Shown piece after piece: positions 1,267-17,123 of a stretch of 25,046 bases of DNA. The DNA comes from a virus. The translations under genes and the position numbers were made by a program. Position 1 is the first letter of the stretch. Every line of letters begins with the position of its first letter. Location of the stretch: positions 1-25,046 of IMG/VR virus record IMGVR_UViG_3300031834_000043. One strand, written 5' to 3'. The notes under the pieces were generated by a model. That model made no database searches and had not been told where the DNA came from. It saw nothing but the letters and a program-made list of their open reading frames with translations.

Positions 1267-1555
1267 TTGTATCTATAAAAATAAAGTCCCACCTCGTGGA
1301 GATAGTATATCTTTGATAATAGAAGGACTTGAGAAAGAAACTGAGAAAGCTTTTCTTATACTGTATCAAAATAAACAATACTGGATACCAAAGTCACAAA
1401 CAGTATCAGTGCATATTGCCACTAAAGATAAAGAACATGATATTATAGTTATAAGTAAGTGGATTGCAGATACCAAAGGTCTTAAAGAAGAAACCCCTGA
1501 AGAGCTAATGTCTCCAAGGGTTATAGAGTTTATAGACGATGACTTACCTTTTTAA
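1259..1555 (+). CDS. 98-aa WIPKSQ-domain protein with SSB-like acidic C-terminal tip
   Basis: The gene starts inside the end of the ligase gene (ATGAGTAA overlap) behind a TGGAG ribosome site. The product has a small beta-rich core with YWIPKSQ at residues 41-47 and KWIADTKGL at 67-75. That pairing is found in a small domain common in phage and plasmid proteins of unknown role. The C-terminus is acidic and ends in EFIDDDLPF, very close to the DDDIPF tip by which bacterial single-stranded DNA-binding protein recruits replication and repair partners. No OB-fold is evident, so it is probably not an SSB itself. It may borrow or compete for SSB-tip-binding host proteins; that is inference. Its stop codon overlaps the stop of the convergent minus-strand gene. 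Confidence 0.85.
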   Translation: MSNCIYKNKVPPRGDSISLIIEGLEKETEKAFLILYQNKQYWIPKSQTVSVHIATKDKEHDIIVISKWIADTKGLKEETPEELMSPRVIEFIDDDLPF

Positions 1556-3978
1556 GGCGATCTAGTATGTAGCGTTAGTGCATCGAGAATTTTACTTATA
1601 GATTTTCCTTGTACTAACTCTGCTACATGTGGGTCAACATATTTACCCAGTATACCACGACTTACATCTTGGTATGCTTGCCGGAAATCAGCAGCACCTT
1701 TCGCTAATTTAGGATATACTTGAGCTTGCTGCTCATACGCTCTAGTAAACAAGCGTGGATCTCCTAATCTTTTACCAGACATGTTTAAAAAACCAGTATG
1801 CTTTGGCCACTTTTTAAGATATAATTCTAACTTAGCCGCTTCCATTGGTGTTATACCCCGTGTATTTTGGGGCTGTAGTAACTTACCAGTTAAAGTTTCT
1901 TTATTCTCCATTTCTGATGGATGTAAACCAAGTCCACCTAACTGAGAACCTGCTTGTTCCCGGTTCTCCATCTTACCAATTTTACTTAATCTATCAATAA
2001 GAACCATTTCTGGTTTAGTTAGTGCTTTGTCTTCAGACTTAAACCTATATGGATCAGTAGCTTCTCTATGATTAGCCCATTTAATGGGGTCAAATCTACC
2101 ATAAGTATCAGTACCATGTTCAATCAATGTTCTAGTCAACATGTTTTGGGTATCTAGTTTTTTCCATTCAGCCAAACCAGCCGTACCTCTTTGTTTCAAC
2201 ACCCCTTTATCAACAGCATTTTCTAATGTAAGAAGCATAGGTTTTAATGCTGCAATTTTTTGTCTAGCTAGTGCTTTATTCTCAGTAGCTAAATATGCAC
2301 TATCTAGTTCATCCTTTAACTGGCTTTTTAAATCTTTAAATTGCGCACCAGTAATATTCAAAGGCAAAAATGTACCTACCGCTGTTCTTCTAGGTATCAT
2401 AAGTTCATCAAACTTATTACCAAAATCAGTAACCATTCTAGCTAGTGTTTTATCATCAGCAGTAGCATTAGGTTTTACTGCACGATTTTGATACTGTCTA
2501 GTATGCCCATTAATAAATGACTTATCAGTCAAATCAAAAACACCCGTAGTATTAGCTTCTATTTCATTATACCTTTGCCCAATAGTATCATGGATCTGTT
2601 TAAGATCAGCTGGAGTCATGTTATCTATAGATTCCTTAGGTAAACCAGTTGCGGCATTCCATGCAGTTCTATTAGAAGCAATGGCATTCTTCATAACTTG
2701 TGTTTTAATGGGGTTACTAAACTTGTCTGAATTTGCCATAGCCGATTCAAAGGCTTGTGTTTCCTGATCACCATGTACCATTCCAGGTAAATCTTTACGC
2801 CCAGCAAGATAACTTGTCTTAAGAAGTTCTTGTTTATAGGGATCATTTTCATGATAGTTATGTGCGCGGGTTAGCCATGGAGCTATTTTGTTACCAATCA
2901 TAGTACCAGCTATAGATGATAACGCTGAACCTCCAATAGAGTTATCGTAATGTGCAGCACCTTCAGCAGCACCAAGTAACCCAGAGCCAATATACTGCCC
3001 AGTATTACCCATTAATGCAGATTTTTCTCCTGGCAGTTTAACTACATTAGCTTTATGTATGGCTTTTTCTAAAATAGGTTGGGCCCATTCTACTTGTGCT
3101 TTTCTTCCTACAGTACCAGTGCCTCTTTTAACTGCTTCAATAGCTGGATGTGTTATGGTAGGTAAATATGTACTAGAAAAGTTGCCTACAGTGGGGCTAA
3201 CATCTGCTAGTGCATTAGCTCCTTTAACAACTAAAGATTTGCCCTGCTTAATACCTTCACCAATAACTTTAGCAGGAACGTCGGCAATAAGTTGCCCAAT
3301 TTTATTTGTTGCGGGACCACCATATAAACCAGTAAGCATATAGGGTAAAGATGCCCCAAGACCTCCTGGTATACCTTTATTCTCACTAAAAGCCTGCATT
3401 AACTTGGATTCTTCAGCCTGTTCTTTAGCAAGTTTGTCTATTTTAGCTTCTACAGCATTAAAAGGTTTTAGGCCAACTAAATCAGGATGCTCTATACCCC
3501 ACACGGCTGTGATAGGTTCTGCTATATGTAACCCTATATTTTGTAGCCCAGCCCCTAACTTAGATATTTCTCTACCAGCACCAACATTGAACTTACTGGG
3601 TTTTACTCCACCAAATAGTCCACTGGCTGCTGCAATGGGGCCTAAGAATGGTATATCACTTGAGCTAAATGCTGGTAAGTCCTTAGCCATTTTGATAGCA
3701 GCTTTTTCTTCTGGTGACTTAGTAAAATAGTCAAGACCACGCTGCAATTGGTTTTCATAACCAGCCAACTCTTGGCGTTTAGCAGTCTCAGCCTCTACTA
3801 CTGCTTCATTACCATGGGACATACCTTCATGTTGGTTCTGAGCAAACATGCTATTAGATCCTGCTGGCTTTGTCAGTTGAAGTAGTTCTTCATCACTATA
3901 ATCTGAAGTAGGTTGCACTTTAGGTTTAATAGTAGGCCGAGCTAACTTCAAAAGTTCTTCATCAGTATAGGCTGTCAT
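1552..3978 (-). CDS. Large internal virion / DNA-ejection protein (808 aa)
   Basis: The product is 808 aa, mostly helical, with Ala/Gly-rich hydrophobic stretches (for example LGASLPYMLTGLYGG near 207-221 and IGSGLLGAAEGAAHY near 330-344). Such stretches suit a protein that leaves the capsid and inserts in or crosses the host envelope. The N-terminus carries two copies of a short repeat, YTDEELLKL (residues 4-12) and YSDEELLQL (27-35). Size, composition and position at the distal end of the late operon match the large ejection proteins of podoviruses (role of T7 gp16 or P22 gp16/gp20). No lytic transglycosylase or peptidase motif was recognised. Its ATG overlaps the stop of the upstream gene (ATGA). 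Its own stop lies in a TTAA shared with the convergent 98-aa gene. The ejection role is inferred from context. Confidence 0.8.
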   Translation of the reverse strand: MTAYTDEELLKLARPTIKPKVQPTSDYSDEELLQLTKPAGSNSMFAQNQHEGMSHGNEAVVEAETAKRQELAGYENQLQRGLDYFTKSPEEKAAIKMAKDLPAFSSSDIPFLGPIAAASGLFGGVKPSKFNVGAGREISKLGAGLQNIGLHIAEPITAVWGIEHPDLVGLKPFNAVEAKIDKLAKEQAEESKLMQAFSENKGIPGGLGASLPYMLTGLYGGPATNKIGQLIADVPAKVIGEGIKQGKSLVVKGANALADVSPTVGNFSSTYLPTITHPAIEAVKRGTGTVGRKAQVEWAQPILEKAIHKANVVKLPGEKSALMGNTGQYIGSGLLGAAEGAAHYDNSIGGSALSSIAGTMIGNKIAPWLTRAHNYHENDPYKQELLKTSYLAGRKDLPGMVHGDQETQAFESAMANSDKFSNPIKTQVMKNAIASNRTAWNAATGLPKESIDNMTPADLKQIHDTIGQRYNEIEANTTGVFDLTDKSFINGHTRQYQNRAVKPNATADDKTLARMVTDFGNKFDELMIPRRTAVGTFLPLNITGAQFKDLKSQLKDELDSAYLATENKALARQKIAALKPMLLTLENAVDKGVLKQRGTAGLAEWKKLDTQNMLTRTLIEHGTDTYGRFDPIKWANHREATDPYRFKSEDKALTKPEMVLIDRLSKIGKMENREQAGSQLGGLGLHPSEMENKETLTGKLLQPQNTRGITPMEAAKLELYLKKWPKHTGFLNMSGKRLGDPRLFTRAYEQQAQVYPKLAKGAADFRQAYQDVSRGILGKYVDPHVAELVQGKSISKILDALTLHTRSP

Positions 3979-5345
3979 TTTATAAGCCCCCGCTCTTTAG
4001 CCATTCTATATGCTTCTTCTTGAGATAACCTAGGTTTACCATTTATGAAACTTTCATTGTTAAGGGGTTCATATTTGGGTTGTCCATTTATATTCCCTCT
4101 GAATATAGTTTTAATTCCATCTGGCATATCAAAGGTATCCCCAATATTTTGACCTGTGGGTAATTTTACACCAGTGGCTACTTTAGCTACAAAAGGTTCC
4201 TTTAATGGTTTAGATGCAGGACTAGGTCCGGCTGCACCAGCATTTTCTTGATTCTGACTATATTTTCCAGGTAATCCAGGACCAGCGCGTACAGTAGCGC
4301 TACTGATCAGGTCATCTATATATTTAAGTTTAGTTTGAACAGCTTCAGCCTTAGAACCCCATGAGGGAATAGCTGCATTAGCTTTTTCTTCTGCTTCAGC
4401 ATAACTAAACCCTTGACCAGATAATAAATGAATGATAGCAATTTTAGCGGCAGAAGCATGCGCATCATATACTTGCTTACTAGCAGACTTTAATGTAGTA
4501 CCAACATCTTTAGCTATGTCCAAAGGTACTTTAGATAAAATATCAGCACCCCAGTCACTCGGATTCTTACTAATATCTAAATTAGCTCCACGTAAAGATT
4601 GCTCAATACCTTTGCGCGCATTAGTCAATGACCCAACCAACATACCAGTTTTACCTTGATCTTCTGTAACAGCTACTGGATGCTGTATAAGTTCACCAGT
4701 TTTTATATTAATGGTAGCTGGTACATTAGGATCATAACCCCAAGCAATTTTCTGTTCTTTTGTAGCAGGTTGCATTTGCGTATTATCACCAGTAAATATA
4801 TTCATACTGCCAGCTTTCTTAAGTTCCGCAGCTTTCGCGGCAAACTCAGGTGTTCCCAACTTTAAATGTGGATACATATCAACTACTTCACGGATTAAAT
4901 TTGGCTCTTCACGCAAAGCCGCAGTTTCTTGAGCTTTACCTAAGTCTGTAATACCACTCAAGCCCCTTTGTACTAACAAAGGATTCTTAGTATTTATTAA
5001 TGCGCGTAGGCCACCAAGGTGTTTCTTTATATCGGGGTTAGTCTCGGACTCGTACTGAGCATCTATAGCGGGTTTATAGGCATCTACCAGTTCCTGGGTA
5101 GCTTGCTTTTGCTGATACTTTTCAAGTTTATTAGATAGATAACTACTTGCAAGGTTACCCAGTATTCCTTTTAACACACCGCCTCCGCCCTGTTGTGGTG
5201 CTTGAACAGAAGTATCGGGCAACTGCATATTTGGAGCAGGAGGTAACTGGGGTATTCCGGTTTGTCCTCTATTTTGATTTTGACTAAGGAAGGCCAACAT
5301 TGTGGCTAACCCACGTGTATTATCGGTGTAATCTTCCTCAGCCAT
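3975..5345 (-). CDS. Putative DNA-ejection (internal virion) protein, 456 aa
   Basis: A 456-aa soluble-looking protein. Residues 30-56 are Pro/Gln/Gly-rich and low complexity, followed by helical segments. Residues about 290-350 (AKIAIIHLLSGQGFSYAE, then a Pro, then a long helix with YIDDLI) match the pattern of a helical domain seen in podoviral DNA-transfer proteins, where a G-x-x-F/Y-x-x-x-E core precedes a conserved Pro. The gene sits between a Gly/Ala-rich protein (8-bp overlap ATGGCTGA) and the 808-aa ejection protein (ATGA overlap). The three are therefore likely co-translated and co-packaged. The assignment rests on domain pattern and gene order; the exact role inside the particle is not known. 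Confidence 0.75.
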   Translation of the reverse strand: MAEEDYTDNTRGLATMLAFLSQNQNRGQTGIPQLPPAPNMQLPDTSVQAPQQGGGGVLKGILGNLASSYLSNKLEKYQQKQATQELVDAYKPAIDAQYESETNPDIKKHLGGLRALINTKNPLLVQRGLSGITDLGKAQETAALREEPNLIREVVDMYPHLKLGTPEFAAKAAELKKAGSMNIFTGDNTQMQPATKEQKIAWGYDPNVPATINIKTGELIQHPVAVTEDQGKTGMLVGSLTNARKGIEQSLRGANLDISKNPSDWGADILSKVPLDIAKDVGTTLKSASKQVYDAHASAAKIAIIHLLSGQGFSYAEAEEKANAAIPSWGSKAEAVQTKLKYIDDLISSATVRAGPGLPGKYSQNQENAGAAGPSPASKPLKEPFVAKVATGVKLPTGQNIGDTFDMPDGIKTIFRGNINGQPKYEPLNNESFINGKPRLSQEEAYRMAKERGLIK

Positions 5346-6057
5346 TGCTCTGCCCCATTAATTGTTTCATCAAGTCCATCATATCAGGATTTTTAGATCC
5401 ACCACCTTGTCCTTTCGACATTATGGACTGCATCAACTGTGCCGCGCCTTGTTCACCTTGGACTCCAGTGGGTTGTGGAGTAGAAGCTCCTAGACCAGAC
5501 TTTTTACTCTTACTAAGTAATGCACCTATCGCTGCTAAATCACCACCACCACCACCACCACCACCACCACCACCACCCTCTCCTCCACCACCGCTATTCT
5601 TACCCAAAAGTCCACTTAATAAGCCCCCAGTATTTGCAGCTTCTGTTCCTGCAGCCGCGGCTGGAGCAGCACTAGCAGAGCCACCACCCCAAGTTCCTGG
5701 AAAACCATAAGCTCCAATACCTGTACCAGCTGCCGCATTACCTGCTGTGCCAAGAGTTCCAGTTCCCCCTAAGTTTGCTGCTTGCAAAGCACTAGATAAA
5801 CCAGAACCACCAGTACCCGCTAACCCAGCTGCTTCTGGAGTTACAGCAGATGCCATAGTTGGTATTGCTGCGCCAACAGAACCAGCTAATCCAGAACTTG
5901 CCCCTGCTCCTGAAAGTCCTCCCATTGCAGTACCAGAACCTGCTACTGGAGCACCGATTCCTAAAGCACCCATTAATGAACTAGCGCCACCTGCTACTGC
6001 GCCACCTAGTGCCGATGCGGCACTTCCAATCGCTGCTGCCACTGCTGCAAAACTCAT
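5338..6057 (-). CDS. Gly/Ala-rich virion protein with a 12-residue polyglycine tract
   Basis: This 239-aa protein is made largely of Gly, Ala and Ser. The N-terminal 35 residues are small and hydrophobic and could insert in a membrane. Residues 161-172 are twelve consecutive glycines encoded by twelve identical GGT codons, a perfect trinucleotide repeat at 5541-5576. The C-terminus is more ordinary and helical, with MMDLMKQLM. Composition and location suggest a small ejection/internal virion protein (position of T7 gp14-type proteins), but no specific family motif is visible. It overlaps its neighbours by 4 bp upstream (ATGA) and 8 bp downstream. The composition is unusual enough that homology searches will be dominated by low complexity. 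Confidence 0.75.
   Translation of the reverse strand: MSFAAVAAAIGSAASALGGAVAGGASSLMGALGIGAPVAGSGTAMGGLSGAGASSGLAGSVGAAIPTMASAVTPEAAGLAGTGGSGLSSALQAANLGGTGTLGTAGNAAAGTGIGAYGFPGTWGGGSASAAPAAAAGTEAANTGGLLSGLLGKNSGGGGEGGGGGGGGGGGGDLAAIGALLSKSKKSGLGASTPQPTGVQGEQGAAQLMQSIMSKGQGGGSKNPDMMDLMKQLMGQSNG
5541..5576. repeat. Perfect (CAC)12 trinucleotide microsatellite
   Basis: Twelve uninterrupted CAC units on the plus strand read as GGT glycine codons in the Gly/Ala-rich virion gene. A pure trinucleotide run of this length is prone to slippage in replication. Changes would stay in frame and alter only the length of the polyglycine linker. Confidence 0.95.
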
Positions 6058-7374: not shown

Positions 7375-7824
7375 TTAATGTAATTTACAAGTTATCACGG
7401 TATGAACTTCATTAAAGCCCCGTGTCTGTAGCAATCTAAGCCATCCATCACGAACAGCCAATCCTCGAAGTTCCGTGCAATTGAAATGCTTCGCCAAGTG
7501 CTTCATCATTTCTAACCATTCATCGCCCCATTCAACTAGCTTATTGCCGCCAAATATTGGGATTAGTAATGACCGAAGTCCACTGTCATAGGTTACAATT
7601 TCTGCTGTGGTCACAGCAATAATTTGCTTATTCTCATATATCGCCACTAACAATGAATTGCCATTGAAAGCTTTTTGTCTAATTGTTTCTTCTGTAAATT
7701 CATTATTGCTTACTTCAACCACTCGCATCAAATGAGGAAGCATTTCTTCCCACTTACTTTCAATCATTGCAGGATGAATAATCTCTATATGGTAATTATC
7801 TGTCTTAACTGTATTATCGTACAT
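7375..7824 (-). CDS. GNAT-like acyltransferase-fold protein of the virion module
   Basis: The 149-aa product follows the GNAT layout: an N-terminal alpha/beta portion, a beta-strand LLVAIYENKQIIAVTTAEIV (58-77), and a C-terminal RGLAVRDGWLRLLQTRGF (120-137) that mirrors the R-GR-GW-x-x-x-L-x-x-x-GF ending common in phage GNAT-like proteins. Such proteins recur in podoviral structural operons and may act in assembly or as virion components; whether this copy is catalytic is unclear because the canonical acetyl-CoA loop (Q/RxxGxG/A) is not evident. The ATG directly abuts the stop of the upstream fibre-like gene. Fold call moderate, role unknown. Confidence 0.75.
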   Translation of the reverse strand: MYDNTVKTDNYHIEIIHPAMIESKWEEMLPHLMRVVEVSNNEFTEETIRQKAFNGNSLLVAIYENKQIIAVTTAEIVTYDSGLRSLLIPIFGGNKLVEWGDEWLEMMKHLAKHFNCTELRGLAVRDGWLRLLQTRGFNEVHTVITCKLH

Positions 7825-8382
7825 TTATTCTACCGCAAATGATCTTGCATTAAGTACCACTGGAGTAGCAGGTATCTCTATAGGTCTAGTTACCACTGTA
7901 GTTACTGTTAGCTTAGCATTGTTATTAAATGATTCAATTCCTTGAATATATACAACGGGTAATTCACACCATACTGTAGTGTGCATTACCACATTCCCTG
8001 TTAACTGAAAGAATATTAACTGAGTTTTATCTGCGTCATTCTGATAAAGTATCTTGTCTCCAGTTGCATAATCTTTCAATATCCTAGATATGTCAAGACC
8101 ATTATTAGTAGATAATGACATGCAAATACGAGTAACCAATGGGCCACTTGCATTATTAAAAGATACAGCACCTGTAGGTGGAGCAACAATAGTTACATTT
8201 GTTTTAAAAATATATTCAAAAGGCACAATTAGTGTATATTGTGCTTGCAACAATCTAGCCACATCAGTTTCTAACTGCTTAAGCCGCATGGAGATAGTAG
8301 CAAAGTTATTATAAATTCGTGTTAAGTATCTATATAGATACTCAGACAATTTTTCCTCTGTGCCTATAGGTACTGATTCCAT
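7825..8382 (-). CDS. Fibre-like structural protein with N-terminal coiled coil
   Basis: A 185-aa protein. Residues about 9-47 show heptad spacing typical of a coiled coil (LSEYLYRYLTRIYNNF, then MRLKQLETDVARLLQ). The rest is beta-rich and Val/Thr/Asn-rich with no charge clusters, as in small trimeric fibre or spike proteins. It starts in a TAATG overlap with the metallopeptidase-like gene, and the next gene begins on the base after its stop. A head or tail fibre is a reasonable guess. No receptor-binding or enzymatic signature is visible, so the specific role is not assigned. Confidence 0.6.
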   Translation of the reverse strand: MESVPIGTEEKLSEYLYRYLTRIYNNFATISMRLKQLETDVARLLQAQYTLIVPFEYIFKTNVTIVAPPTGAVSFNNASGPLVTRICMSLSTNNGLDISRILKDYATGDKILYQNDADKTQLIFFQLTGNVVMHTTVWCELPVVYIQGIESFNNNAKLTVTTVVTRPIEIPATPVVLNARSFAVE

Positions 8383-9398
8383 TACTTTTCCTTACCAAAC
8401 ATATCTTCCCAACTAAATCCACCCATTTTAATAGTATCTAGTGGGGATACCTCGTTAAGCTGACGCTCTGAATAACCCGACCTAGTTCCACTCATACGGG
8501 CTAATATTTCACCTAAGTCTTTGTAATATAATCCGTGCGCTGGTTTTCTAACCTGATCATAAAGTCTATGAAGTTTTTCTCTTAAATAAACACGGTCTGT
8601 CATATTAGGTTCATAGTCATGAATTAACTGTTGTAGAGCTACTTGACGTTTGGGATCTTCTTCATATTTATTATATAACTTATTTTTAAAAGCATATAGT
8701 TCATTTTGACTTCTAGTCTTAAATAACTTTGCAGTAGATTCTGAAAATTGAGACTGATTTGCGCCTTTTTGTATAGGCTTATATGCTGCTTGTGCATGAG
8801 TCAGTTCATGCATCAATATATCCAATGCACTCTCTGGAGAAGTGTGCTCTACATCAATCTGACCGGATGTGGTTCTAAATAAACCGCTATCTTGTTGTGC
8901 TGGTTTTATTAAAGTTCTTAAAAACTCCTGCCCCTCCGCAGCGTTATTACGCATAAATGCTGGATGATCTAAGGCCTCCATAAGAGAAACCCGTCCACCA
9001 GTATCAAGATTAACCTTAGCGTTAATGTCTGGTATCTCCCCATGCATCTGTATTTTACCAGCAGTATTCTTCCATGGGTACATCTTAAACCTATCCCATA
9101 CCTCTGATAGTGGAGCTCCCTTCTTAAGCTGACTGAGGGCTTTATCAGCTAACTTTTCACTATAATCAGGCATACCTTTTAATAATAATGTACCAGCACC
9201 TCCAGCGCCAAATCCACTATTTGCTATATCTTGTGGCGTACTGCCTTGTTGTAACCACGGCATAGCTTCAGTTCCAGCACGTTCAACACCTTGCTTTAGA
9301 TTAGCAATATCTCCACGCGCACGTTCTCCAACTAATCCAGTATTAAGTGTATTATAGGATTCTTTTATATGAGATAGTAAATCATTTAAGTATGACAT
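8382..9398 (-). CDS. HExxH metallopeptidase-like virion-module protein (LPD23-like)
   Basis: A 338-aa protein with a clear zinc-peptidase signature HELTH at residues 197-201 inside ILMHELTHAQAAY. About 95 residues later GEILARM (296-302) supplies a glutamate placed like the third zinc ligand of gluzincins. Upstream, FKMYPWKNTAGKIQMHGEI (104-122) matches the W/Y-x-x-x-G-K-x-x-x-E-I pattern that precedes this domain in large polyvalent proteins of phages and plasmids (LPD23-type). It lies in the structural operon between the propeller-like and fibre-like proteins, joined by TAATG overlaps on both sides. It could process virion proteins or act on the host at entry. Peptidase activity is inferred from motif only; the substrate is unknown. 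Confidence 0.75.
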   Translation of the reverse strand: MSYLNDLLSHIKESYNTLNTGLVGERARGDIANLKQGVERAGTEAMPWLQQGSTPQDIANSGFGAGGAGTLLLKGMPDYSEKLADKALSQLKKGAPLSEVWDRFKMYPWKNTAGKIQMHGEIPDINAKVNLDTGGRVSLMEALDHPAFMRNNAAEGQEFLRTLIKPAQQDSGLFRTTSGQIDVEHTSPESALDILMHELTHAQAAYKPIQKGANQSQFSESTAKLFKTRSQNELYAFKNKLYNKYEEDPKRQVALQQLIHDYEPNMTDRVYLREKLHRLYDQVRKPAHGLYYKDLGEILARMSGTRSGYSERQLNEVSPLDTIKMGGFSWEDMFGKEK

Positions 9399-10963
9399 TA
9401 CCGCTGCCCATTCAATACATATTCAATATCCATCCCTGAATAAGAAAATTGTGAATTGTTATATGATTGTATTCTCCAGGAGTGCAGCATACCTGTTGTC
9501 CTAACTTCTATCTTTCTGTCAGTGTTGGGTGTAAATATTTTTGATATGTCCCATCTAACTGAAGCACCTAAAGCATATTGTGAACCAAATGTAATAAGAA
9601 CTGATCCATTTGATCTAATATGTGGAAACACTCTCAATATGGTTGTGACTTCACGTTGGTCTGTAAGTTGGGCTGACACACGCTCAACGAATGTATCTGT
9701 TTCATTATCATTGTCAACAATCTGCATATTATAAATAGTACTAGTTGGTTCTTCTATACCAACAATTCCTTGAGCAAATGGAGATGAAGAATCAAAATTC
9801 CAAGGTATTAATGCGTTTAACCAGGTATTAGTCAATTTAATCCACTGACTAGATGAAAAACTAACCAAGCCATAAATTAATGAAGTTATAGCATTATCAA
9901 TGTCCCTAATTGACATTTTTTGATCAACATAATTATATACAAAAGCTATATTTGGAAAGGTACTACCAATTGAAGGAACACAAAACCAAACTTCTTTATT
10001 TGAATGGTCAACTACTGCATAGGATTTATAAAAATAAGTTGGATCAATAGAACCTTCTATTTTTGTGCGTACTAATCTATGTGCTATAGACTGCACTGTG
10101 TTACCATCATTTATAAGTATATCATCCTTGGATAAAAAGATATGTTTACCATAAATATCAACTACACAGTTCTTGGTTAATAAACCTTGATTAGATGCTA
10201 ATGATCTTGCAGACCAAATAAATTCACCACCTACATAAGATAGAATAGTAATGCCATCCTCTGAATACAAACAGAAGTCATCTCGCATTGATAAGCCATC
10301 AACTAATATGCCAGAATTGCCAAGTATAGATGCTTGCCCCGCTATTGATGATAGATCAAGTGTATCCCAGGTATAGGGTAATCCATTGTTATCAGCAGGA
10401 TGCGACCAACGATAGTTATTTGGTAATTTAACACCACCTTCAGTCATATTAATGGCAAACAAAAAGTTCTTATGTGCCCTCATTACACTGCAATGATAAT
10501 CCTTTTGCTTCCATGTCTCTGTTGGACTAAATTGCAAAGGAGCCATCTTGGTTGAACCGCTTGCCTGTGGCCAATATTCAGGCTGATGCTGAACATTATT
10601 AAATATTGGTATATTGCCCAATAAGCAATCTGTCCAATGAAACTGTGCACCTGCAAGCATTTCAGCATATCCAGCTACTGAGGATATATTAAACCATGTT
10701 CCACCATCATAAGCATAGATTGCTGTTAATCCAGCAACAACAAAGAAATAGGTTGGAGCTGCATTAACAAATAGTATCTTTGCTCCATGAAAAGAAACTG
10801 GGCATGTGGACATAGCCGCACCAAAATTGAATGAGAATATTTTGCCATTCTTTAAGCGGAAGTCATTACCATTAGTAAACCAATTTGGATCAAGATCACA
10901 AGGCTCCAGATCGAAGTTTACACCTGCATCACCAGCTAATTTAAGAGTTAGTAATTCTTGCAT
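9398..10963 (-). CDS. Beta-propeller-like stabilisation/tail protein (P22 gp10-like role)
   Basis: A protein of about 521 aa, beta-rich throughout. An N-terminal GVNFDLEPCDLDPN is followed by NDFRLKNGKIFSF. That pattern is typical of podoviral packaged-DNA stabilisation or tail-hub proteins, with repeated strands and an internal WSHPADN...YTWDTL segment. It lacks membrane segments. The start is taken as the ATG at 10961-10963 with GGAA upstream; a TTG two codons earlier (10969) is possible. Either start overlaps the preceding four-Cys gene. The stop shares a TAATG with the metallopeptidase-like gene. Order (adaptor, fibre, four-Cys protein, this protein) supports a tail/portal-neck role, but the exact family was not confirmed. 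Confidence 0.7.
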   Translation of the reverse strand: MQELLTLKLAGDAGVNFDLEPCDLDPNWFTNGNDFRLKNGKIFSFNFGAAMSTCPVSFHGAKILFVNAAPTYFFVVAGLTAIYAYDGGTWFNISSVAGYAEMLAGAQFHWTDCLLGNIPIFNNVQHQPEYWPQASGSTKMAPLQFSPTETWKQKDYHCSVMRAHKNFLFAINMTEGGVKLPNNYRWSHPADNNGLPYTWDTLDLSSIAGQASILGNSGILVDGLSMRDDFCLYSEDGITILSYVGGEFIWSARSLASNQGLLTKNCVVDIYGKHIFLSKDDILINDGNTVQSIAHRLVRTKIEGSIDPTYFYKSYAVVDHSNKEVWFCVPSIGSTFPNIAFVYNYVDQKMSIRDIDNAITSLIYGLVSFSSSQWIKLTNTWLNALIPWNFDSSSPFAQGIVGIEEPTSTIYNMQIVDNDNETDTFVERVSAQLTDQREVTTILRVFPHIRSNGSVLITFGSQYALGASVRWDISKIFTPNTDRKIEVRTTGMLHSWRIQSYNNSQFSYSGMDIEYVLNGQR

Positions 10964-11243
10964 TTTCAATTCCAGTAGATATTACTTTAATAGCAAAATC
11001 TTGTTTTTCTAGTGTGGTATCTCTCAATGATGCAACTGCCATGTTTACACCTCTGGTCATTTGAGAGTTCTCAACTAGAAGTATCGGCAACCATTCAAAG
11101 ATCGAGCATCGCCATTCATCAACGATCTGATCGGAGGTTGGCAATTTACCGGAAAGTAAAGTGTAAGCGCGACAGCGATAAATAACATTATTTTCGGCAC
11201 GTTCACATTCTTTCCCCAGTGGGCATTCTAGTTTTACTTCCAT
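10941..11243 (-). CDS. Four-cysteine conserved phage protein, putative zinc-binding
   Basis: The 100-aa product has Cys7, Cys13, Cys24 and Cys46 in the context CPLGKEC, YRCRAY and EWRCSIFEWLPILLVEN. After this comes TRGVNMAVASLRD, which resembles a conserved Ala-Val-x-S-x-R-x motif. The pattern is familiar from small proteins next to tail genes in many tailed phages. The four cysteines could hold a metal. It starts in a TAATG overlap with the collar-type fibre gene and overlaps the start of the propeller-like gene. Role is unknown; a structural or assembly function is suggested only by position. Confidence 0.7.
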   Translation of the reverse strand: MEVKLECPLGKECERAENNVIYRCRAYTLLSGKLPTSDQIVDEWRCSIFEWLPILLVENSQMTRGVNMAVASLRDTTLEKQDFAIKVISTGIENARITNS

Positions 11244-11965
11244 TAGTTCTTACTACACACAATAGTATCAAGATAAAAAGGTGTCCAATTCACCGCACCT
11301 GTATTAGCAAGTGTAGGGCCACTATGCGTATGAGGCACACTTTGATTGCCAATAGTTCCAGAAGGTGTATGTCCACCAGCAGGCTGAGTTGCTATTTGAG
11401 TCTGGTTTGTTACTGCGGCATACGAAACTGTATTCTGATCTAAACCATCAAAAGATGCTGTCATTGAATGTGAATGATCTGGTACAGGATTCATAGTCAA
11501 CGTATGTGTATGGTTAACACTATTTGTCGTAGTAGTAAATGGGTGTGTATGGGTAGGTACTGTATTATTAATAATTGGTGACATAGATCCACCACTACCT
11601 CCTCCATTTGTACTTACTACCCGCAACATATGATTCGCCCAAGTATGCACTTGAGTCCATCCAGCGGGTGCTGTTGCCTGTGCAAATACCATTCTAGTTC
11701 CCGCAGGAAACTGCCCAGAAGTGATCCTGGAATCGAGCGCATTTAATTGAGTTTGAATCGCACTAGTAACACCAACTAGAAAATTAAGTTCTGTTTCCTT
11801 GGCTGTAATTGGAATAGCGAAACCTTGACCTGCTACACCAGGAAATTGCAGTTTAAGTACAGACTTAATTAACTGGAGATGTTGATAGCCTTGTGATTGG
11901 CTATCTGTACCAGCTGGATTACTTGCAACTAACCCCGATATTGTGGTTGAACTTTCTAATGACAC
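11243..11965 (-). CDS. Tail fibre with phage collar-like C-terminus and HxH motifs
   Basis: A 240-aa fibre. The N-terminus (NPAGTDSQSQGYQHLQLIKS, 16-35) is a typical virion-attachment segment of phage fibres. The middle PAGTRMVFAQATAPAGW (87-103) matches the tail-collar domain. Four H-x-H pairs follow (139/141, 152/154, 164/166, 212/214), as in trimeric short tail fibres that thread metal ions along the trimer axis (T4 gp12 type). It ends in WTPFYLDTIVCSKN, the usual C-terminal strand of the family. The start codon is GTG, supported by AAGGTAGG five bases upstream. It probably binds the host surface. Ending in TAATG, it is coupled to the four-Cys gene. Family call is strong; receptor unknown. 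Confidence 0.85.
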   Translation of the reverse strand: MSLESSTTISGLVASNPAGTDSQSQGYQHLQLIKSVLKLQFPGVAGQGFAIPITAKETELNFLVGVTSAIQTQLNALDSRITSGQFPAGTRMVFAQATAPAGWTQVHTWANHMLRVVSTNGGGSGGSMSPIINNTVPTHTHPFTTTTNSVNHTHTLTMNPVPDHSHSMTASFDGLDQNTVSYAAVTNQTQIATQPAGGHTPSGTIGNQSVPHTHSGPTLANTGAVNWTPFYLDTIVCSKN

Positions 11966-11966
11966 G

Positions 11967-12608
11967 TTAACCTACCTTTGTATAAATTGGATTCCCGCTC
12001 CAAGTGGCGCGATCATTCAATAGTGTAATTTCATCAAGAGATTGCTTAAACCGAGCATCCCACAACGCAGCTGACTCTCCATCTTTAGCAAAACTATTAA
12101 TCTCAGTTAATAATCCAAAAATATAGCAATCAGGATTATTATTAGATAACCAATTATTTACAGCAGATTTTGTTAATGCAGGAACGCTTCTAAAGTAATT
12201 TATTTCAAGTATATAAGTGGATGTATCTGTATTAACAGGAACAGGCCATATCTCAATATAACCTGAAATAATACAATAAGCTGCATACGCGGAATTATTG
12301 TTCCTGAGATTAGCCATCTGTTCAGGATTAACTAAACTAAGTGTACTGCTATAGGTTAATAATTCCTTTTGCGTTATTCTTATAGATCGCTCTGATAAAA
12401 AATCATCTGGTAATGTGTATCTATTAGGATATTTAGTAGTTGTATCAATAAGCGTGTAGGCTGTTGATGACATTTTTTGTGTCAATAAAGCCCTATTAAC
12501 CCTGGATTCTACTACCCTAAGAAAGTTATCCATATTCGATACAATAGGTACACTACTAGCACGATCAGCATAACTCAATGCTACATCAATAACTTTTTGA
12601 TAATCCAT
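11967..12608 (-). CDS. Head-tail adaptor (SU10-adaptor-like)
   Basis: A 213-aa protein with an N-terminal helix bundle (ALSYADRASSVPIV, then NFLRVVESRVNRALLTQKM), a beta segment YTLPDDFLSERSIRI, then INYFRSVPALT. It finishes with NNWLSNNNPDCYIFGLLTEI and a final helix (LWDARFKQSLDEI). The order of these blocks, including the Tyr-rich strand before the N-W-L and P-D-x-Y-x-x-x-L motifs, fits the adaptor that docks beneath the portal ring in SU10-like and related podoviruses. It matches the SU10-type capsid gene nearby. ATG with AAGGA six bases upstream. It lies between a small beta-rich protein and the collar-type fibre. Confident as to class. Confidence 0.8.
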   Translation of the reverse strand: MDYQKVIDVALSYADRASSVPIVSNMDNFLRVVESRVNRALLTQKMSSTAYTLIDTTTKYPNRYTLPDDFLSERSIRITQKELLTYSSTLSLVNPEQMANLRNNNSAYAAYCIISGYIEIWPVPVNTDTSTYILEINYFRSVPALTKSAVNNWLSNNNPDCYIFGLLTEINSFAKDGESAALWDARFKQSLDEITLLNDRATWSGNPIYTKVG

Positions 12609-12610
12609 CT

Positions 12611-12916
12611 TTATTCCTTAATCCAAACAACATTTTCACCAATACTAAAAACCCAAATACCTTTTGATATTTCTAACCAACCATCAGAAGATGTATTAAC
12701 TTGTATTACTGAATTACCAGATACAATCAAAGCTGATCTTACAATTATACCATTAGAACTTAAATTAACTTGAGTACAAGGTGCTCCTTGTGGAGTTTTA
12801 TAAATAACTACTGCACCAACTAAACAAGTATTATTTTGTACTACAGAATCACCTTGCAAAGTAACCGCGCCAACATCACTAAAAGGAACATCACAATATA
12901 CTGATACTGCATACAT
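12611..12916 (-). CDS. Small beta-rich structural protein, unknown
   Basis: A 101-aa, low-charge, beta-rich product (many V, T, N, S) ending in GENVVWIKE. AGGGG stands eight bases before the ATG. It is packed between the large receptor-binding-type fibre (11 bp upstream) and the adaptor (2 bp downstream). It is not recognised. Composition suggests a surface beta-sandwich or fibre-associated protein. No motif supports anything more specific. Confidence 0.65.
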   Translation of the reverse strand: MYAVSVYCDVPFSDVGAVTLQGDSVVQNNTCLVGAVVIYKTPQGAPCTQVNLSSNGIIVRSALIVSGNSVIQVNTSSDGWLEISKGIWVFSIGENVVWIKE

Positions 12917-12927
12917 CGTATTATCCC

Positions 12928-14328
12928 CTAGAAATCACAATTAATAACTACTTTGGAGGTACCAGTAGGATTGAATGCTGTAGAATTACCTGCTACCAAT
13001 CCAGATGCTACCGTTACGTCAAGATCGGTGCTATTAACTGAAACATGACCTATTCCAATAACCGTTGCAGCCACAGGAGTATAAGAGGAATTAACTAAAT
13101 TATAAGTTGATGTTGCACCAGTTAGCGCTATATCACTGGCAGGTCTCATTGTAGGCACTGTGTGTGGAAAAGAGGTACGAGCTTTTATAGTCTGATAAGC
13201 CATACCTGTAACCCTACAAGCTGTATTAATTACTTGGCAATACCGTTGACACATTGAAAGATATGCGCCATAATCTAAATGATTAAATTCTGTTGCAATG
13301 CTACCTTTCTCCAACTGAACACCAGTTATGCGGAGTATAGCGCTAGTTGTTCCTACTAATGACAAAGCGCCAGTAGCAGAAACAAAATTGCCAGTCTGCC
13401 AAGTGCCATTTGCTGGAGCTGAAAAGGTAACTCCTGCTCCTAAACTAAAATTTACTGAAATACCAACTGTATTTGGTGCTATATTCCAATTTCCACTTTG
13501 ATTGCCAGGTACAGTAATTGTTTGGTATTCCCAGGTATTAATGGCATTGATAACATAGGAAAAAGGAAAACTACGATCAGCTGGATTATTTGTAAAACTG
13601 CCACCATAAGTTCCAGCAATAGTAGACTGTACCCAAAATGAAAGTGTAATAGTACTAGCATCAGATGTCCCAAATGCTAAATCATTTATATTTGTCCCTT
13701 CAATACGTTGCCCCACAGCAAAGAAATCACTAGCCGCTACCGTATAAGCCGATAATGATACCAGGGTTAAAAGGTTAGTGAACCCAGGAAAATTAGTGGC
13801 ATTACCTTGATTAATCGAAAATTTAGAAGCTAACGACAAAGCACTATGCCATCTATCTAAAGAATATGTATTGGTTATTGTTGGTATTATTGTTGCACCA
13901 TCATTTCTTTGGTCAACTTTCATAGCACCATTAATAATGCGATTCTTAAATGAGTTAGCTTGTACACCTGTACAATTTACAAGATTGCCCGTTAATGGTA
14001 TTCCTAAATCACCACCCTGGAATACGGCTTTACCCGCTGGATACGTGCAGATTACATCTTTTGTCCCTGCACTAAAACTAACCTTAGCACCACTTGCAGA
14101 TGAATCTAAAACAGTATTCCTTGATAATAAAGTTCCTGCTAATGTATAAGTACCTATACCTACTTCCCATTCGCCTAAACTTCTATGAATTATGGCATAG
14201 TGTGTAGTATTGGCATTACCTATTACTGAAAAAGCATGATACTTAGTTACAGCACCCAACAACGTAGCACTACCCGTACCAACAACTGATGTAGTTTCTT
14301 TTACTCTGTCTTTTAGTACAAGCGTCAT
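12928..14328 (-). CDS. Receptor-binding / tail fibre protein with jelly-roll-like module
   Basis: The 466-aa product starts with a particle-anchoring segment seen in phage fibre proteins (LKDRVKETTSVVGTG, then YAIIHRSLGEWEVGIGTY, and CTYPAGKA near 90-97). Then comes NRIINGAMKVDQRNDGA (128-144) with SLDRW, leading into a carbohydrate-binding-like beta-sandwich. This ends with ITGVQLEKGSIATEFNHLDYGAYLSMCQRYC (from about 333), a signature of many receptor-binding proteins. The C-terminal 100 residues are a separate Thr/Val-rich domain, probably the tip. It lies upstream of the adaptor. The likely task is recognition of host surface sugars. No diversity-generating repeat was seen next to it. Confidence 0.85.
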   Translation of the reverse strand: MTLVLKDRVKETTSVVGTGSATLLGAVTKYHAFSVIGNANTTHYAIIHRSLGEWEVGIGTYTLAGTLLSRNTVLDSSASGAKVSFSAGTKDVICTYPAGKAVFQGGDLGIPLTGNLVNCTGVQANSFKNRIINGAMKVDQRNDGATIIPTITNTYSLDRWHSALSLASKFSINQGNATNFPGFTNLLTLVSLSAYTVAASDFFAVGQRIEGTNINDLAFGTSDASTITLSFWVQSTIAGTYGGSFTNNPADRSFPFSYVINAINTWEYQTITVPGNQSGNWNIAPNTVGISVNFSLGAGVTFSAPANGTWQTGNFVSATGALSLVGTTSAILRITGVQLEKGSIATEFNHLDYGAYLSMCQRYCQVINTACRVTGMAYQTIKARTSFPHTVPTMRPASDIALTGATSTYNLVNSSYTPVAATVIGIGHVSVNSTDLDVTVASGLVAGNSTAFNPTGTSKVVINCDF

Positions 14329-15692: not shown

Positions 15693-16091
15693 TTATGATG
15701 TTAGTGTTAGTAATACAGTTTGATGTAGTTGAGTTTTAGCCGCTGCTGCTGGACTCTGTATAGTAACATTACCTGTAGTCAATGTTACCTTACCAACTGC
15801 CAATCCTTGAGCATTTAGTGTCGCGGTTGCAGCTGCCAATGATGAACCTACTACGTTGGCTACAGTTATTGGTATACAATAAGCACAGTTATCAACCAGA
15901 CCTTCTGGTGTAACAGTATCGTGTCCAGCTTGCCATGCAATATTATATGCACTACCAGAAGGATGTGGATTAGTTCCAGCACCTGTTACAAGTGATTCTC
16001 TACCTTCACACCATGCACGTGCAAGTTCATCTTTTGCTGTCTTTATATCAGTGTGGTTATTGGCCGCACTATGTTTAAATTCACCTGGCAT
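15693..16091 (-). CDS. RMF/CrpP-like motif fused to a PASTA-like domain
   Basis: A 132-aa protein with two parts. Residues 19-58 (AKDELARAWCEGRESLVTG, then NPHPSGSAYNIAWQAGH) follow the A-x-x-x-G-x-x-A...G...NP...W-x-x-G pattern of the small ribosome-modulation-factor/CrpP-like motif often found in phage proteins. Residues 75-132 are PASTA-like (VANVVGSSLAAATATLNAQGL, then QSPAAAA and VLLTLTS). The PASTA part closely resembles that of the 83-aa protein at 16872-17123, sharing VTLTTG and the C-terminal TLTS. The function of the combination is not known; it is probably a virion-associated protein by position. Confidence 0.7.
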   Translation of the reverse strand: MPGEFKHSAANNHTDIKTAKDELARAWCEGRESLVTGAGTNPHPSGSAYNIAWQAGHDTVTPEGLVDNCAYCIPITVANVVGSSLAAATATLNAQGLAVGKVTLTTGNVTIQSPAAAAKTQLHQTVLLTLTS

Positions 16092-16871: not shown

Positions 16872-17123
16872 CTATGATGTTAATGTCATTGCTACAGCAT
16901 TACCATCCAGGTTCCAAGTTCCCCCTAATGGATTCTGTCTAGTAACTACACCAGTTGTCAATGTAACTACCCCCTTTACCAAACCAACTGTTGTAATTGC
17001 TGTTGCAGCGTTTGATTCAGTCATACCAATAATATCAGGAGTTAATACCCGTCCTGCTTGTTGATGGTATGTAGGTACTGAAATATAAATTTCATACCCT
17101 GTACTATCTTTTATACCTGCCAT
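16872..17123 (-). CDS. Single-PASTA-domain small protein (83 aa)
   Basis: After a short N-terminal strand region with YEIYISVPTY, residues 27-83 form a PASTA-like domain: LTPDIIGMTESNAATAITTVGL, then VTLTTGVVTRQNPLGG and VAMTLTS. It is first of the small genes after the major capsid gene and so may be made in large amount. Its PASTA part is clearly related to that of the 132-aa protein at 15693-16091. No export signal is present. A capsid decoration or head-fibre role is attractive but inferred. Confidence 0.7.
   Translation of the reverse strand: MAGIKDSTGYEIYISVPTYHQQAGRVLTPDIIGMTESNAATAITTVGLVKGVVTLTTGVVTRQNPLGGTWNLDGNAVAMTLTS

Follow-up and report, generated by a model that had tools for sequence, protein, structure and literature searches.

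Metallopeptidase (MPTase) domains occur in polyvalent proteins, large polypeptides that each join 2 to 15 disparate domains. According to the survey by Iyer et al. (2017; PMC5512222), a main role proposed for these peptidases is autoprocessing, with P1 DdrB as the model, and an effector role is offered as well. The described module closest to the gene considered here pairs LPD23 (PF18838) with a zincin MPTase (PMC5512222). It is contained in gp60 of Pseudomonas phage H66 (a PLxRFG protein with relatives in F116), a multidomain protein of 3787 aa in which it reads HELQHAIQ ... GEVEAR; the visible part of the record note on the H66 giant relative says 'verified by mass spectrometry as part ...'. 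The module is also found free-standing, as in gp3 of EBPR podovirus 3 (AEI70965.1), an LPD23-MPTase of 335 aa. Precedents for the loading and ejection of proteins and for cleavage in the host come from the P1 Dar proteins and the T4 internal proteins (PMC9024508 and PMC5512222). The N-termini of P1 DarB and T4 IPIII serve as loading signals for injected cargo, and in DarB a reporter is targeted to the capsid by the first 30 residues (PMC9024508).

Here, we consider P0001, a gene in a virus record of 25,046 bases that was analysed over its whole length (the window) and that encodes an SU10-type portal (Pfam E=1.9e-159) and major capsid protein (2.8e-65). The initial annotation had described a free-standing protein of the structural operon with HELTH at residues 197–201 and a distal glutamate in GEILAR. 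Both motifs are present as described in the 338-aa minus-strand open reading frame (ORF), the glutamate being E297, and the gene does stand alone in the virion operon, directly after the gene for the nozzle protein (Table 1), whose family profile matches solved chains named nozzle (E=3.8e-47 and 1.2e-46). P0001 shares with the LPD23-zincin module the order of an LPD23-like segment followed by HExxH ... Y..GE..AR...R, a clear profile match, and a setting among virion genes. It differs in having one enzyme domain, in lacking HExQHxxQxxEGF, and in giving no direct LPD23 Pfam match; unlike P0001, EBPR podovirus 3 gp3 retains HEIQHAVQRKEGW. Polyvalent proteins carry several domains in one large polypeptide, whereas P0001 represents one of these domains standing alone. 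By sequence and model, we place P0001 in the zincin/LPD23 module of giant phage proteins, as a divergent, free-standing member. Our preferred explanation, which the analysis makes moderately probable, is that P0001 is a zinc protease effector carried in the virion and injected, with a modular loading tag, that would cut a host protein and travel as optional cargo.

Table 1. Positions in the window of P0001, its sequence features, its neighbours, and the gene junctions
Feature	Position	Strand	Remark
P0001 CDS, free-standing LPD23-type zincin metallopeptidase	8382..9398	minus	338 aa, ATG start
N-terminal tag 1 of P0001, residues 1-75	9174..9398	minus	recurs in proteins with other C-terminal domains
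LPD23-like segment of P0001, residues 81-125 (W101, E121, I122, D124)	9024..9158	minus	profile alignment
Zincin metallopeptidase core of P0001, residues 126-320	8439..9023	minus	profile alignment and AlphaFold
H145 of P0001	8964..8966	minus	His in 77/78 relatives at that column
HELTH of P0001, residues 197-201	8796..8810	minus	by homology, two zinc ligands and general base
GEILAR of P0001, residues 296-301	8496..8513	minus	E297 the third zinc ligand by homology
Nozzle (tail) protein, upstream neighbour of P0001	9398..10969	minus	PHROG 3287, E=9.1e-85
Downstream neighbour of P0001	7825..8382	minus	homologue directly after nozzle gene in L005
TAATG stop-start junction, nozzle/P0001, left insert edge	9396..9400	minus	
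TAATG stop-start junction, P0001/next gene, right insert edge	8380..8384	minus	

An HExxH motif arises by chance in 1.62% of 20,000 shuffles of P0001, and P0001 is the only stop-to-stop ORF of at least 50 aa in the window that contains one. Conservation is more decisive than this frequency for judging the motif real. Two contigs carry copies of P0001 that are 98% identical, and more distant homologues are present in L009 and L016 (~30% identity, HELGH and TEVASR) and in L090 (26% identity, HELDH and YEQSAR). H197, E198, H201, Y291, E297, R301, and R306 are conserved down to ~26% identity. The initial annotation had read the motifs as those of a zinc peptidase and had named homologues without H197, H201, and E297 as the finding that would count against this; in the homologues of ~26–30% identity these three residues are conserved and, with E198 and R301, identical.

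The connection to the known family runs through L034 and L048, known-type relatives that are joined to the P0001 profile at 1.6e-09 (hhalign). Their Pfam matches to LPD23 (PF18838) fall below the cut-off (L034, 0.0012; L048, 0.0049), as do that of L090 (0.063) and a match of L048 to DUF6782, a 'putative metallopeptidase family'. L034 matches 40 phage records, including Pseudomonas phage AF, EBPR podovirus 3 gp3, and H66/F116 proteins. A family scan seeded by L034-type relatives gave at least 453 confirmed stretches, the best 80 of which were used for a profile. These 80 LPD23-MPTases were retrieved with two degenerate motif patterns, and their conservation is partly by construction because the patterns include parts of the conserved motifs; P0001, for its part, fails to match the first pattern. 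With P0001 excluded, the profile was searched among 4800 ORFs and their reversed and three-fold shuffled copies. It matches residues 81–320 of P0001 with E=4.5e-12 (best decoy, 2.7), L090 with E=7.1e-18, and L009 with E=1.3e-08. The kinship with domains of large polyvalent proteins that had been proposed at the outset is thus borne out by this match, with which hhalign and viral structure models agree.

Among these best 80 of at least 453, HExxH is present in every member, with no variation at the positions of H197, E198, and H201 (80/80); the columns of Y291, G296, E297, R301, and R306 are invariant in the 72 aligned members. P0001 retains G94, W101, E121, I122, D124, H145, H197, E198, H201, G212, Y291, G296, E297, A300, R301, R306, and P319. 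The trimmed alignment omits the C-terminal part of L009, L090, and EBPR gp3, whose conserved glutamate was seen separately. Free-standing forms are common, since 45 of the 64 complete stop-to-stop ORFs within the best 80 are at most 480 aa long. P0001 departs from the family in the flank HExQHxxQxxEGFxxGG, a feature read off the 80 proteins in the present analysis; apart from the retained G212, it has T200, A204, K207, P208, I209, and A213 in this stretch. Because all predicted ligands are retained, we treat the loss as divergence, but activity could differ or be lost because this flank is missing. Searched directly, P0001 has no Pfam family at E<=1, and PF18838 has no match anywhere in the window. 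The only direct matches to other collections, each taken as chance, were RIIA lysis inhibitor in PHROGs (E=0.11), a polyketide synthase among PDB sequences (0.26), and XopG in NCBIfam (12.6 bits against a cut-off of 150). By tblastn, P0001 has no match in phages or plasmids, nor do L009 ORF A, L090, and L092 in phages, and a pattern search of genome contigs gave 6 matches, of which 0 were confirmed. L046 (cluster 57) was dropped as a candidate peptidase, its two cluster-mates being without HExxH.

An AlphaFold model of P0001 built from 66 sequences, with an input alignment anchored by our own family alignment, has a pLDDT of 73.8 and a pTM of 0.66; an earlier model from 6 sequences (pLDDT 37) was set aside. 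By ten-residue blocks, pLDDT is 81–95 for residues 71–210, 82–84 for the blocks with the E297 helix, and 45–64 for the tag (residues 1–70). HELTH lies in a predicted helix spanning residues 188–206 and E297 in one spanning 295–306. A search of viral models returned F8TUW9 (E=4.5e-11), which by its same length is probably EBPR podovirus 3 gp3, and several 'large polyvalent protein associated domain' proteins. Every Foldseek match in the PDB is weak (E>=0.46), and VIA rows from rank 8 onward include clearly unrelated proteins, so no PDB family is claimed. Many of the PDB structure matches are zinc peptidases, and the zincin core has a weak fold-level likeness to IrrE/PprI (the best match, Z 5.4 over 99 residues with an rmsd of 4.0), CapP (4.5), and ArdC (3.9); the 66-row family profile matches IrrE chains with E=0.0046. 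Because this likeness is too weak, and because lethal factor chains reach comparable scores (Z 4.1), we do not claim membership in these groups.

Compared with L005, in which the nozzle is 91% identical, P0001 is an exact one-gene insert between two TAATG junctions. The comparison set holds 84 nozzle loci (80 from IMG/VR, the window, and three phage records, several of them near-identical), with the recurrent order nozzle, fibre-like, 149-aa protein, Gly/Ser/Asn-rich protein, and internal proteins; with 244 genes in the 84 loci, the fibre-like cluster is broad enough that it could hide an insert. The slot after the nozzle is uninformative in 9 of the 84, including L006, which carries a small protein. 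Of the 75 informative loci, 61 have no called gene of at least 60 aa before the next core gene, although a slot counted as empty may hold smaller genes because the caller keeps ORFs of at least 60 aa; in the Ss1 record, for instance, this slot has an annotated gene of 180 bases. Eight loci have an unrelated small protein, three have P0001, and three have something else, which in one case (L009) begins like the usual next gene. The P0001 carriers are the window, L003, and L004, three near-identical phages, and P0001 is not a core virion gene. A recognisable LPD23-MPTase is present in 7 of the 84 nozzle loci, within the stretches examined, many of which are incomplete. A further slot, between the genes for the 149-aa and Gly/Ser/Asn-rich proteins, is empty in 52 of 57 informative loci and holds cargo-like genes in L090 (metallopeptidase) and L092 (ART-like), and still other cargo-like genes are positioned after the last internal protein. 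Beyond these loci, 37 free-standing relatives (one being the L048 locus) have 70 neighbours, of which 56 were scanned against PHROGs. These include portal families (5, 4, and 3), terminase large subunit (4), and scaffold (3), together with many families without known function and single non-virion matches such as a DNA methyltransferase.

Several other genes of this region are worth recording. A small protein with the motif KLP/KMPNH..TFS..S.Y occurs in 10 loci, in 9 of them directly after the nozzle in the slot that P0001 occupies (for example L006:5598-5990, L017:2731-3159, and L027:6217-7089, the last with an extra C-terminal stretch). In the clustered set, 64 loci conserve the 149-aa protein (window 7375-7824); by eye it resembles an acetyltransferase, and a search for acetyltransferase or GNAT support in Pfam and PDB gave none. 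The last internal protein of the window (1552-3978, 808 aa) has no SLT domain found by Pfam, and in its L004 counterpart (11196-13700) an SLT transglycosylase domain occupies the N-terminus (E=1.2e-07), a difference between near-identical phages. The protein at window 5338-6057 has a long glycine run that is longer in L004 (whole protein 244 aa vs 239 in the window and L003), suggesting a length-variable repeat. An accessory protein of 256–263 aa, glycosyltransferase-like by eye, follows the Gly/Ser/Asn-rich gene in L046 (6826-7593), L074, and L075, and small proteins with repeated PASTA-like phrases (by eye) lie near the capsid gene (window 15693-16091 and 16872-17123).

The N-terminal tag of P0001 (tag 1) recurs in L017 (phmmer E=2.8e-07), in L009 (phmmer 0.0015), and in L092 (by profile, 1.9e-04). 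Behind it stand the metallopeptidase in P0001, a domain without assignment in L017, and an ART-like domain in L009 (and, weakly, L092). The independently found L137 carries tag 1 (1.5e-09) in front of a canonical LPD23-MPTase, which is encoded between the portal and scaffold genes. A second tag (MTLEEIVN...) is present at 16 loci, 14 with a complete ORF longer than the tag and some on contigs already in the nozzle set. Its partners are the metallopeptidase, ART-like domains, and one unrelated domain, and in 15 of the 16 no more than 20 bases separate the start of the gene from an internal-protein gene. Tag 3 is found with PcfJ-like (Pfam 3.4e-11, L075), ART-like, and other domains. The ART labels rest on sub-threshold Pfam matches, likeness to L009, or motif reading by eye. 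Tags 2 and 3 share a core (hhalign E=2.2e-08), and a single common tag family was rejected, as tag 1 does not align to either (hhalign E 0.04–0.1). Within the phage collection, the L137 tag has no match at E<=1 and the L017 protein has a single 33-residue match (0.02). A short leader motif in the first 12 residues is a lead only. It is present in 17 of 17 distinct cargo N-termini, a circular count because the motif was made from them, and elsewhere in 14/28 first internal, 6/23 small internal, 1/29 second internal, and 23/930 other proteins; the definition is post hoc, many of the rows share kinship, and an earlier version gave 66/1223. Among outside relatives it occurs in 1 of the 37 free-standing forms (the L048 locus) and 0 of 19 large ones, and it is not in the 456-aa internal protein of the window. 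The first internal proteins of L031, L039, L043, L062, and L090, part of the 14/28 and picked out post hoc, start with an IxDLL-type leader like the cargo genes.

In the explanation that we prefer, P0001 would be an active zinc endopeptidase synthesised late, alongside the head and tail proteins, its translation probably being coupled, as the TAATG junctions suggest. Its N-terminal ~75 residues would load it into the virion, and it would enter the host together with the DNA and the ejection proteins. H197, H201, and E297 of the C-terminal core would hold zinc, with E198 as the base, and a host protein would be cleaved early in infection. The steps of loading, ejection, and host cleavage follow the Dar and internal-protein precedents, and injection with the DNA is suggested by context, namely the late operon and tag sharing. 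We regard P0001 as optional cargo because most related phages are without it at the slot and some have another gene there, and this patchy presence favours an effector over a maturation enzyme.

Maturation of the phage's own virion proteins, one role offered in the initial annotation, is disfavoured, since most relatives that have this virion module lack the gene. More broadly, P0001 could process virion or co-packaged cargo proteins in trans, by maturation or tag removal, and not a host protein. The autoprocessing role proposed from P1 DdrB points this way, as does the metallopeptidase gene that adjoins the tag-1 genes in L009 and L017. A maturation protease should, however, be core and conserved with the virion module, and neither the 3 of 75 slots with P0001 nor the 7 of 84 loci with an LPD23-MPTase fits this; moreover, tagged cargo without an MPTase in the stretch examined is found in L035 (ART-PolyVal E=0.053) and in L030, L051, and L069 (ART-like by eye). 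We judge processing in trans unlikely.

P0001 is tied to the virion by gene position, and no PHROG places it there, so it might be expressed late yet stay unpackaged and work in the producing cell, perhaps in superinfection exclusion or late takeover; the tag common to other cargo-like genes in virion modules makes this decidedly improbable. A lysis or envelope-breaching enzyme that aids passage of DNA through the cell wall might be expected next to the nozzle gene, and the SLT domain in L004 is in keeping with such a function, but the relatives of P0001 are LPD23-MPTases and no peptidoglycan-peptidase family was matched in Pfam, PHROGs, or NCBIfam, which leaves this role very improbable. Lastly, loss of the HExQHxxQxxEGF flank could mark P0001 as the decayed remnant of a domain from a polyvalent protein, no longer active. 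Every predicted ligand is retained, though, and the frame is open in three contigs (7 synonymous and 5–6 nonsynonymous codon changes and a one-residue indel, too few for a selection test), so we give this reading the slightest of chances.

If the injected-effector explanation is correct, phages of this kind offer a readable list of the enzymes that they choose to inject, and the constant tags predict which uncharacterised genes are cargo. Reporter fusions would allow a direct test of a ~75-residue tag that loads a podovirus virion. The protease form would make a compact and tractable case of a domain that is often embedded in polypeptides longer than 1000 residues.

Overall, the enzyme family of P0001 is ordinary and already known; the setting in which it would be delivered is what makes it interesting, and the tag-swapping cargo set is the newer part. 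In the literature searched, which covered few subscription papers, we found no description of tag-swapped cargo in the SU10-type phage group. By role, tag 1 is putatively like the N-termini of P1 DarB and T4 IPIII. We tentatively suggest, as a possibility that falls short of being probable, that SU10-type podoviruses have a polymorphic injected-effector system, in which tags on optional virion-operon genes are recombined with LPD23-zincin, ART-like, PcfJ-like, and other domains, P0001 being the tag-1 protease form. Such a system would resemble the polymorphic toxins, which swap warheads behind a constant trafficking region.
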